The position numbers and the translations under genes were made by a program. From Deltaproteobacteria bacterium (GTDB taxonomy: Bacteria > Desulfobacterota > Desulfarculia > JACQYL01): 49,479 nucleotides of DNA. Each line of letters begins with the position of its first letter. Within the stretch, counting starts at the first letter, position 1. Below, piece after piece: positions 18,741-21,696 of the stretch. The DNA is taken from positions 1 through 49,479 of the forward strand of contig JACQYL010000137.1 in NCBI GenBank assembly GCA_016208165.1, read 5' to 3'. The notes beneath the pieces are model-generated. The model saw only the letters and a list, made by a program, of their open reading frames with translations, was not told where the DNA came from and did not search any database.

Positions 18741-19573
18741 CCGCCCTCAAAAAATCTTCTATAATCCACAATCGGTCGGTGACTTGCTCTTCCGTGGCAG
18801 GAGTCACTTTCAATGTCTTGTGAATCCTCACAAAATTGTAATAGGCAGAGTGAAGAGCAACAACGGCCTTCAGGTTTTCAAGTTTCTTACTGAACGCATT
18901 CGTTAGCCGAGTAAAAAGGCGCATGGACATTCTGATTGTAAGATTTTGTCTTTCCAAAAAAGAAGGTGAAGATTTTGTTAGGATCGGAGTTTCCCGCGAT
19001 TTTCCTTTTTTTCCATGGCGATCGCCTCTGGGGGGAGACCGTACCTACCCGGTCCAATTGGTCGCTCCCCGTAGGACCTTACAATCTACGCATAATCCAC
19101 TTCTGCGCCAAAGCTTTCCTCAACGGCATCGACGCGTTGGCAAAGCATATCTGAGCTTAACTGGATACGGGTAGTCAGGGAAGAGCGAAGGTCGGAAATG
19201 ACGTCTCTGGCTGTCTCAATATTACGTCTTGCGATCTGAATGGTTGGAACGAGCACAGTGTCAGAGTCAAGCGCAACCCACGTCCAAAAGTCGCCCATTT
19301 CAAAAGGGTTATCCGCCCTGTTAAGGTGTGGTTTCTTGTTGCCGAAAAAAGTCCAAATTTCGTCCAACTGGATGCTCTCGCACTGAAGGCCCTTCATGGT
19401 TTTATTCGGAAGTTTTTGACAGCCTTCCCATGTAGGCACCAAAAGGCGTGTAATCGTATCCCTGCGGACCCCTGTCATTTGCTCAGTGGATCTAATGGGG
19501 CAACCTTCCACCCTGTGGACGAGATAACTCCCTCTTGCTTTCGGAACTTCAATGGGAACTTCAAATTGTTCAT
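18733..19573 (-). pseudogene. IS1-family transposase, multiply interrupted
   Basis: Three reading-frame pieces on the minus strand together cover a one-ORF IS1-type DDE transposase. The N-terminal helix-turn-helix and DEIWTFFGNKK (first acidic residue) are in one frame down to 19089. Then QxxY-type sequence YA-stop-IVRSYG shows an amber codon TAG at 19088-19086 where homologues have Gln. The frame breaks again at a run of seven A (19012-19006), after which NSDPNKIF, LERQNLTIRMSMR and the C-terminus LHSAYYNFVRIHKTLKVTP follow in another frame to 18733. The expected start (ATG 19573, MNNLK) is itself out of frame with the first piece, so a third lesion lies near 19530-19555. The A7 run could be a programmed slip site, as in IS1, but the other lesions make the gene dead. 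Confidence 0.88.
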
Positions 19574-19615
19574 TGCGATGCCCCATTAAGCGTGTTATCT
19601 TGAAAAACTTGTTTA

Positions 19616-19689
19616 GTGGGGCCACTCGGGATCGAACCCGAGCAGTCGGGTGTAAACCCACAACTACGAGCGCCCAACTCTGGCCCCAC
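19616..19689 (-). pseudogene. tRNA-Val(UAC)-like relic
   Basis: On the minus strand GGGGCCA and TGGCCCC form a perfect 7-bp acceptor stem followed by discriminator A. Inside are a D-arm-like GAG-TTGGGCG-CTC, an anticodon-type loop TTTACAC (UAC, valine) on a stem with one mismatch, and a T arm with TTCGATC. The standard two bases between acceptor and D stem are missing, and the T loop carries one extra G. It is therefore probably a degenerate tRNA copy rather than a working tRNA. The outer 9-bp inverted repeat GTGGGGCCA/TGGCCCCAC could alternatively be a simple hairpin. It sits between the transposase and the cargo operon, upstream of both. Confidence 0.4.
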
Positions 19690-19744
19690 GTCTCAAGGGG
19701 AATAGGTTGTGTTCTCAACTTAATTCCCCTTTTATTTTGCGCAG

Positions 19745-19772
19745 TTGCCGTGTTCATAGAATGGAGTATAAT
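19745..19772 (+). promoter_or_regulatory. Candidate promoter of the cargo operon
   Basis: TTGCCG (19745-19750), a 16-base spacer and a perfect TATAAT (19767-19772) lie 60 bases upstream of the toxin gene. The whole stretch 19745-19831 is AT-rich and contains a second TATAAT touching the toxin start codon, so more than one start site is possible. Confidence 0.45.
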
Positions 19773-19831
19773 AATTTTATTATATTCGGCCAAGCGGGAA
19801 ATGCTTGCCAATATAAGATTTTTGTTATAAT

Positions 19832-20206
19832 ATGAGCATATGGAAGTTCAAAGTATTTCTTAGCAACCGAGAACTCGACACCTTCGAGGAGTGGTTGACT
19901 GATCAGGACAAAGAGGCTCGTGTAAGAATTAGGAATACTATCGCGTACTTGGCAAACATAGAAAGACACCAGTGGGGTAGGCCGTACTTTGCTCCGATAG
20001 GTAAAAGCATCTATGAAATCAGGGTTCAGAGCGGAAAAAAGCAATATAGAATTTTTGGCTGTTTTGGCTTCGGGCCTCAAACATTTACACTATTAATAGG
20101 AACAGGCAAAAAGGGAAAGACTTATACTCCAAAAGACGCGATAAAGACTGCCCAAAAAAGGCGCAAACTAATTGATGAGGATAGGGGCTATTTAGGTGAA
20201 TACTGA
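19832..20206 (+). CDS. RelE/HigB (Gp49-like) toxin
   Basis: A 124-residue basic protein with the Gp49/HigB branch pattern of RelE-type toxins, which are mRNA interferases acting at the ribosome. Visible features are an N-terminal helix region (FEEWLTDQDKEARVRIRNTI), the strand segment IYEIRVQSGKKQYRIF near 62-77, then FTLLIGTGKKGKTYTPKDAIKTAQKRR, the typical C-terminal helix. The ATG at 19832 has no Shine-Dalgarno sequence; a TATAAT abuts the start codon. It overlaps the antitoxin gene by 11 bases and comes first, the HigBA-like order. Cargo of the mobile element. The toxic activity is inferred from family. Confidence 0.85.
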   Translation: MSIWKFKVFLSNRELDTFEEWLTDQDKEARVRIRNTIAYLANIERHQWGRPYFAPIGKSIYEIRVQSGKKQYRIFGCFGFGPQTFTLLIGTGKKGKTYTPKDAIKTAQKRRKLIDEDRGYLGEY

Positions 20207-20753
20207 CGAAAGAGAAATCCTTAAGGAAGAATTAAAGGACAAAGAATACAGGGATATTTTTGTTTCTGTGACCGTCGATCAAACGATACCATTTCAGATT
20301 AGAACTATGAGGTTATCTAAGGATCGACATTGGACGCAAGAGGAGTTGGCCAAAAGGTCAGGTATGATGCAACCTAGAATTGCGGCCTGTGAGAATCCAA
20401 ACTATGGTAAATTTTCCCTACAAACTTTAAAACGAATAGCTGCCGCTTTCGATGTGGCCTTGATAGTTAGGTTTGCTCCATTTAGTGAGCTTGTTGAATG
20501 GAAAGCAAACCTATCACCTGATAGTTTCAATGTGAGAAATTTTGAAAATGAAGAACATTATTTTTATAGGATTACTGAAACAGAAACAACAGGTTCGCTT
20601 TCATTAAGAGAGGAATATTCAGGACCACAGGTAGATCAATCGCTAAAGTATAATGAACTCCCCAAATCGGCGTCGAACATATTGACTTTGTCGAGTGAAG
20701 GAAACCAAGCCATTCCGGAAATGCCCATAGAAAGAAAACGAGTAGCGCGATGA
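20196..20753 (+). CDS. XRE-family antitoxin with long C-terminal extension
   Basis: A 185-residue protein, predicted antitoxin and repressor of the operon. Residues about 33-85 form a lambda-repressor-type helix-turn-helix (WTQEELAKRSGMMQPRIAACE, then FSLQTLKRIAAAFDVALIV). The following 100 residues are not recognised and are longer than in usual HigA proteins. They may be the toxin-neutralising part or contact the two downstream products. GTG start at 20196 has AGGGG 8 bases upstream and lies inside the toxin gene, so expression is coupled. The stop overlaps the next start as ATGA. Confidence 0.85.
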   Translation: MNTDEREILKEELKDKEYRDIFVSVTVDQTIPFQIRTMRLSKDRHWTQEELAKRSGMMQPRIAACENPNYGKFSLQTLKRIAAAFDVALIVRFAPFSELVEWKANLSPDSFNVRNFENEEHYFYRITETETTGSLSLREEYSGPQVDQSLKYNELPKSASNILTLSSEGNQAIPEMPIERKRVAR

Positions 20754-21409
20754 ACCTATTATCTGTTAAACTGGCAAGGAGTATTTGGTTAGGACCGATT
20801 TCAGACCTAAACCCAAAAGGCATTAGTATCGCTCGAAGCCTATTTCCTTTTCTAATAGATACGTATAAATTTATGGAATACCCGTCTTCTACAAAAACTG
20901 AAGATCCACAAGCGGGACTTAAATTCGAGAACGGTGAGTTTGAAATCGATGGACATGACTATCCAATTCACATCAATTCTTTAACTCTATACCTTGATGG
21001 AATAACAGTTGATACTCACTCCTCTACCAATTATTCTGATGTCATTTTAGATAACGTACTTACAAAATCAGAGCAACTTTTTGGTGGACCTGTCTATGCT
21101 TCAATAATTAAGCAAAAATTATACGTTAGTGAGGTCTACGTTTCAACTGATCAAGTCTTGGAAAGACTCAACTCAAAACTGAAACAAATTTCTAACTATT
21201 TGATTAAATATTTTGGAAAAGAAATAAACTTTCAAGCTGGTGGTATTTCATTTTGGCCAGATCCAAAAAACAAGTTCAATCCAAGACCATTTGCTTTCGA
21301 AAGAGCGGTTGAAGCACCATTTTCGGAAAACAGATACTACTCAATAGCCCCAATACCAACCGACAAACATCTTGAGTTATTAGATAAACTAGAAATGATT
21401 CTAAGCTAA
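20750..21409 (+). CDS. Unknown protein, third gene of the cargo operon
   Basis: A 219-residue protein I cannot place in a family. It has no membrane segment or signal peptide and is mixed alpha/beta: an N-terminal half with strands (FENGEFEIDGHDYPIHINSL, LTLYLDGITVDTHSS) and a helical middle with VLERLNSKLKQISNYLIKYF, ending in a Leu-rich helix. It begins with an ATGA overlap with the antitoxin gene and its TAA overlaps the next ATG by one base. It is therefore translated as part of the toxin-antitoxin unit. Its base composition matches the other cargo, not the host. It may be a third toxin-antitoxin component or an independent passenger. Confidence 0.7.
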   Translation: MNLLSVKLARSIWLGPISDLNPKGISIARSLFPFLIDTYKFMEYPSSTKTEDPQAGLKFENGEFEIDGHDYPIHINSLTLYLDGITVDTHSSTNYSDVILDNVLTKSEQLFGGPVYASIIKQKLYVSEVYVSTDQVLERLNSKLKQISNYLIKYFGKEINFQAGGISFWPDPKNKFNPRPFAFERAVEAPFSENRYYSIAPIPTDKHLELLDKLEMILS

Positions 21410-21696
21410 TGAAGACCGAATTGAAAGAAGCCGTGGAGCAATTACATAACTGCAAAGCAGAGTGGTCTGAATCTATTCCAATTAACGAAACCTTTCAGGG
21501 TCACACAGTTTGGGAAGGTAAGGTTCAGGTTTTCGAACTATCAAGCCATCCGAAGGTTAAAAAGTGCTATGTTTGGTCTCACCCTATGGAAGGATCAGAC
21601 AAGAGTAAATTCTATGCCATTCTCCATCAAGGTCCTGTAGACTCCCCCGAGGCCTGCGTGCGGGCGGCAATCGTCAGTGAATATGGCGAAAAATAA
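21409..21696 (+). CDS. Unknown small protein, fourth gene of the cargo operon
   Basis: A 95-residue protein starting at the A of the upstream TAA (TAATG). It has no transmembrane segment. The central part VFELSSHPKVKKCYVWSHP followed by FYAILHQGPVDSPEACVRAAI looks like a compact alpha/beta domain, but I do not know its function. The stop lies 15 bases before the right inverted repeat, so the operon fills the element to its edge. Gene density and overlaps argue that all four cargo genes are kept together. Confidence 0.7.
   Translation: MKTELKEAVEQLHNCKAEWSESIPINETFQGHTVWEGKVQVFELSSHPKVKKCYVWSHPMEGSDKSKFYAILHQGPVDSPEACVRAAIVSEYGEK

Follow-up and report, generated by a model that had tools for sequence, protein, structure and literature searches.

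A toxin-antitoxin operon with a conserved third gene whose product may act as a dedicated partner of the antitoxin

The window analyzed here, 49,479 nucleotides of contig JACQYL010000137.1 of a Deltaproteobacteria bacterium, carries an operon in which the genes of a Gp49-type toxin and an XRE-type antitoxin are followed by a conserved gene for a 219-residue protein, called p219 below. We consider the chances about even that the three genes make up a tripartite module working as toxin-antitoxin-chaperone (TAC) systems do, in which p219 would be dedicated to the antitoxin and take the place of the chaperone.

Results

Organization of the operon

The four open reading frames of the initial annotation were found on the + strand exactly where it placed them (Table 1), and every junction overlaps as it had described, by 11 bases, then ATGA, then TAATG. 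Homologues of each frame exist elsewhere and the order toxin-antitoxin-p219 occurs in 16 loci, indicating that the arrangement is not due to chance. The toxin start is preceded by 'TTGTTATAATATG', without a visible Shine-Dalgarno sequence. The GC content of the operon is 39%, against 56% for the whole window and about 57% for both flanks, and the operon therefore looks like an insert. A decayed transposase-like open reading frame, judged IS1-like by eye and without a Pfam match, lies just upstream (19086-19811, - strand). Relatives of this frame, or of a similar one at L003, are found upstream of the p219 operon in L002 and L003/L020, and adjoin homologues of the fourth, 95-aa gene in L010 and L014. 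A tRNA-looking stretch at 19619-19690 gave no tRNA match in ARAGORN or Rfam.

Table 1. Features of the operon and its upstream region in the window
Feature	Coordinates	Strand	Description	Basis
Toxin gene	19832..20206	+	124 aa, ATG start, Gp49/DUF891 (RelE/HigB superfamily)	PF05973 match; 16 p219 loci
XRE-type antitoxin gene	20196..20753	+	185 aa, GTG start	HTH_3 match, alignment, conservation profile, tail lengths
p219 gene	20750..21409	+	219 aa, ATG start, conserved third component, predicted two-lobed TBP-like fold	Homologues, model, fold matches
95-aa gene	21409..21696	+	ATG start, TAATG-coupled here, outside the conserved module	Homologue neighbourhoods
Perfect palindrome TATAATAA-TT-TTATTATA	19767..19784	.	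Contains the -10 of a promoter-like site (19745-19772); candidate operator	Function inferred

Toxin

The product of gene 1, annotated initially as HigB-like, is a Gp49/DUF891 protein (PF05973, E 7e-15, 55.3 bits against a cut-off of 23.9). Members of the Gp49-type family act by ribosome-dependent mRNA cleavage (PMC11980606), and by analogy this toxin is probably a ribosome-dependent mRNA interferase. In six of the 16 Gp49-type p219 loci (L005, L021, L025, L026, L027 and L029) the toxin belongs to a diverged group, which was detected with a profile built in part from members of that same group. These toxins share a conserved 'LRPMLCRGP'-like motif and the group recurs with p219; the L005 protein, the one examined, has no Pfam match. 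At L045:520-951 an in-frame stop splits the toxin gene while antitoxin and p219 are intact, and L030 has kept antitoxin and p219 without a toxin gene.

Antitoxin and its tail

The XRE assignment of gene 2 was upheld by an HTH_3 domain above the Pfam cut-off (E 1e-6, 28.9 bits; cut-off 23), and its profile matches HipB and HigA2 chains of known structure. Across the p219 loci, antitoxin residues 1-120 align well, with a mean top-residue frequency of 0.42-0.67 per 15-residue block. Past residue 120 or so the frequency is 0.23-0.29, defining a hypervariable tail of about 62 residues composed mostly of disorder-promoting residues. All antitoxins with p219 behind them, counted on 19 loci, have tails of 46-110 aa past the domain. 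On the other hand, the five closest antitoxin relatives within the phylum that have no p219 (L077-L081, a small control set) are 91-132 aa long and end soon after the helix-turn-helix. Tail and p219 thus co-occur, which bears out the significance attached initially to the long antitoxin C-terminus: it accompanies the third gene. On the Thiothrix unzii plasmid pTunz2 (L073:784-2030), where a Gp49-type toxin gene precedes that of an XRE antitoxin with a tail, the third gene is a different one; its 95-aa product has no Pfam match and may represent another type of antitoxin partner.

The tails have no convincing shared motif, since a motif search rose only marginally above shuffled sequences at width 8, and no hydrophobic clustering was found in them. 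An apparently shared tail end in L004 and L021 (NETAFR/NEAAFG) proved to be an artefact of out-of-frame reading over the conserved start of p219, and the remaining similarity between the L004 and L006 tails falls short of significance (p 0.024 among 18 comparisons). Because the tails lack a common motif, contact between tail and p219 is proposed here as an inference. The tails of TAC antitoxins are likewise hypervariable, without shared similarity or motif (PMC5105189).

The p219 family and its partners

As initially suggested, the 219-residue product resembles no known family: no match was obtained in Pfam, NCBIfam, PADLOC, PHROGs or PDB sequences. TIGR04255 was rejected as its family (hhalign E 0.44 over 15 columns). 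After removal of duplicates, homology searches gave 20 intact copies, spread over Desulfobacterota, Nitrospirota, Acidobacteriota and Pseudomonadota. Besides these, L031 has a fragment next to a transposase, and a frameshifted copy lies behind a helix-turn-helix gene on a Bradyrhizobium plasmid (L019). The sequence is well conserved across the family, and an acidic pI of 4.5-6.5 is shared by 19 of the 20 intact proteins. Sampling of 395 genomes from the same phylum turned up homologues in 4, not counting the genome of the window, and a profile added one more; among 297 genomes from the phylum to which the Terriglobia genome L028 belongs, 7 were positive, L028 included. In samples around the Gammaproteobacteria and Nitrospira p219 genomes only the central genome was positive. 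These low numbers of positive genomes per sample indicate a rare and patchy family. GTDB genomes gave 12 loci, some of them already present in the other samples, and no p219 was found in phages or viral contigs in phage and IMG/VR searches.

Examination of homologue neighbourhoods, the check proposed in the initial annotation, showed that in each of the 20 intact loci the gene immediately before p219 is an antitoxin gene or resembles one, if a 202-aa gene without family assignment in L041 is counted. The preceding gene encodes an XRE antitoxin in 17 of them; of these 17 loci, 16 also have a Gp49-type toxin gene, which in L045 is broken. The toxin-antitoxin-p219 operon is thus found in the window and 15 other loci. 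In L004, p219 follows a DUF4160-DUF2442 pair (E 1e-8 and 1e-13), and in L047 it follows HicB (E 1e-7); the latter p219 is distant but genuine (profile-profile E 9e-7). In the p219 tree one clade (support 99/97) unites the copies of L004, L005, L006 and L021, which show 65-77% identity where pairs were compared and stand behind three kinds of toxin-antitoxin pair. Three pairings inside one supported clade indicate that p219 passes between toxin-antitoxin pairs.

Two of the less usual loci have further features. The HicB of L047/L048 (4456-5064 of L048, - strand) has a C-terminal tail of about 80 aa ahead of the distant p219, and no HicA toxin was recognised upstream. L041:867-2673 encodes the 202-aa protein, p219 and, downstream, an HNH nuclease (E 1e-11), so that p219 sits there between putative antitoxin and putative toxin genes.

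Predicted fold of p219

An AlphaFold model of p219 built from 13 sequences had a pLDDT of 70.5 and already gave TATA-binding protein (TBP) as its top match; with 21 sequences the pLDDT was 93 and the pTM 0.87. The first nine PDB matches of the p219 model are TBPs (probability 0.99-1.00), with TM-scores of 0.36-0.47, one long chain excepted. Structural alignment with TBP gave Z 9.1 over 162 residues with an rmsd of 4.6, and the best 32 rows are all TBPs; the best others, SerRS (Z 7.6) and McsB (7.5), are below TBP by a modest margin. The best match among viral models is a giant-virus TBP. In the predicted model the match spans the whole length of p219 and both lobes, and the fold of p219 is accordingly predicted to be two-lobed and TBP-like, unlike any toxin.

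In sequence, the window protein and 13 family members showed no match to PF00352 (TBP) in Pfam scans, profile-profile comparison with TBP gave a probability of 2% (E 0.026 for a single pair) with the lobes out of register, and an internal duplication was not detectable by profile. Given the modest margin, the TM-scores, and the lack of profile support and of a visible repeat, the term TBP-like is used here for the fold alone and implies no homology. A 2020 survey describes bacterial TBP homologues, among them RNase HIII and RnlA, as single lobes only, a two-lobed form being absent (PMC7221094); no later contradiction of this statement was found in open-licence literature. With TBP and these bacterial TBP-lobe proteins p219 shares the predicted fold, in both lobes and over its full length, but it has no sequence similarity to them and is acidic.

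The 95-aa gene

A four-gene system with two conserved followers had been envisaged initially. That expectation held for p219 and failed for gene 4, which joins the pair in this operon only, and the conserved module comprises three genes. The 95-aa family is well conserved (47-60% identity) and has no Pfam match. Outside the window locus no homologue was found near p219 or this toxin-antitoxin pair: one overlaps a GmrSD-type gene (L008), another an N6/N4 DNA methylase gene (L013), and others adjoin DUF3800 (L014) and unknown genes. This scatter in unrelated settings rules out the 95-aa gene as part of the system. From its neighbourhoods it looks like a passenger, a small gene from defence or mobile regions that came to lie behind the operon, and the family is possibly a small accessory of defence or restriction loci.

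Discussion

Two-gene Gp49-XRE (HigBA-like) type II modules have the same toxin family, a helix-turn-helix antitoxin and the toxin-first order; to these the p219 operon adds a long antitoxin tail and a conserved third gene. Both additions recall TAC systems, in which a SecB-like chaperone holds the antitoxin via its C-terminal extension and the chaperone-extension pair is movable between toxin-antitoxin families (PMC5105189, PMC6377645). The p219 loci share with TAC (M. tuberculosis HigBA1-SecB(TA), E. coli HigBAC and CmdTAC) the order toxin-antitoxin-third gene in one operon, antitoxin tails that lack mutual similarity and are absent from the five nearest relatives without p219, and a single third-protein family common to several toxin-antitoxin families, just as the third family of TAC serves HigBA, MqsRA and HicAB (PMC5105189). 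The difference lies in the third protein: p219 is not SecB by sequence and its predicted fold is two-lobed and TBP-like. The SecB family (PF02556) had no match in 13 p219 members at E up to 1, and the p219 profile reached E 0.12 over 14 columns against six SecB-like proteins; by sequence, p219 could at most be a very diverged SecB. No SecB chain was among the 50 rows listed by Foldseek or VIA-align for the p219 model, which by itself says little either way. The module, while it may work like TAC, is not classed as TAC because p219 does not match SecB by sequence.

By analogy with TAC, the XRE antitoxin would bind the toxin and repress the operon, probably at the upstream palindrome. Its flexible C-terminal tail would make it unstable, or unable to hold the toxin alone, and p219 would bind this tail and keep the antitoxin functional. 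Titration of p219, by a phage protein for instance, would then make the antitoxin fail and let the toxin stop growth; in TAC a phage tail protein can break the hold of the chaperone on the antitoxin, as reported in PMC11980606. By the same analogy, the module may serve in defence. This TAC-like model is supported by the antitoxin-adjacent position of p219 in 20 of 20 intact loci, its occurrence in otherwise unrelated modules, the co-occurrence of tail and p219 and the hypervariability of the tails, and also by the conservation of p219 and its confidently predicted fold, unlike that of any toxin. It is weakened by the lack of a tail motif or hydrophobic cluster, by a p219 that is not SecB-like in sequence, by a control set of only five tail-less antitoxins, and by the tailed pTunz2 relative with its other third gene.

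Three other roles for p219 were weighed against this model. Known three-gene modules such as HipBST, in which HipS neutralises the toxin, and the constant presence of p219 within toxin-antitoxin operons would fit a p219 that neutralises the toxin directly, leaving the XRE protein mainly as a repressor. HipBST is also a three-gene toxin-antitoxin module with a helix-turn-helix protein, but its toxin is a kinase and its neutraliser a split HipA, p219 having been compared with HipBST parts through Pfam, NCBIfam and PDB scans only. Since closely related p219 proteins adjoin different toxin families, direct toxin binding would demand an unusual promiscuity; it would also leave the tails without a reason, and in L030 there is no toxin gene to neutralise. 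We regard this role as unlikely. Slightly less likely still is a DNA-binding co-regulator that would sit as a TBP-like saddle on the AT-rich operon promoter. The predicted two-lobed fold and the AT-rich palindrome over the promoter would suit it, whereas the acidic charge of nearly all copies argues against binding of promoter DNA, and p219 is kept while the DNA-binding type of the antitoxin changes (XRE, HicB, DUF2442); on both grounds such a role is disfavoured, and the tails are again left without a reason.

The most improbable of the three is that p219 is cargo, or an independent effector merely travelling with toxin-antitoxin modules. The IS1-like transposase remnants upstream of the operon in the window, L002 and L003 and the lack of conservation of the tail sequences are consistent with it, but all 20 intact copies lie directly behind an antitoxin-type gene and the nearest antitoxins without p219 are tail-less, whereas real cargo resembles the scattered 95-aa gene.

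In the TAC papers cited here, the dedicated antitoxin chaperones are SecB-like proteins. We tentatively put forward, as a possibility held with some doubt, that a free-standing bacterial protein of two-lobed TBP fold was taken up by toxin-antitoxin modules as an exchangeable partner of the antitoxin. This would be a second form of 'chaperone addiction', independent of SecB and possibly phage-sensing, and the protein possibly a bacterial relative of two-lobed TBP. If this is true, an unrelated family would do the same job with several toxin-antitoxin types, making chaperone addiction a general, convergent strategy, and partners of the p219 type would offer a new handle for finding defence systems. 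Given the single-lobe statement of the 2020 survey, the presence in bacteria of a fold with two TBP-like lobes would also be relevant to the origins of TBP.
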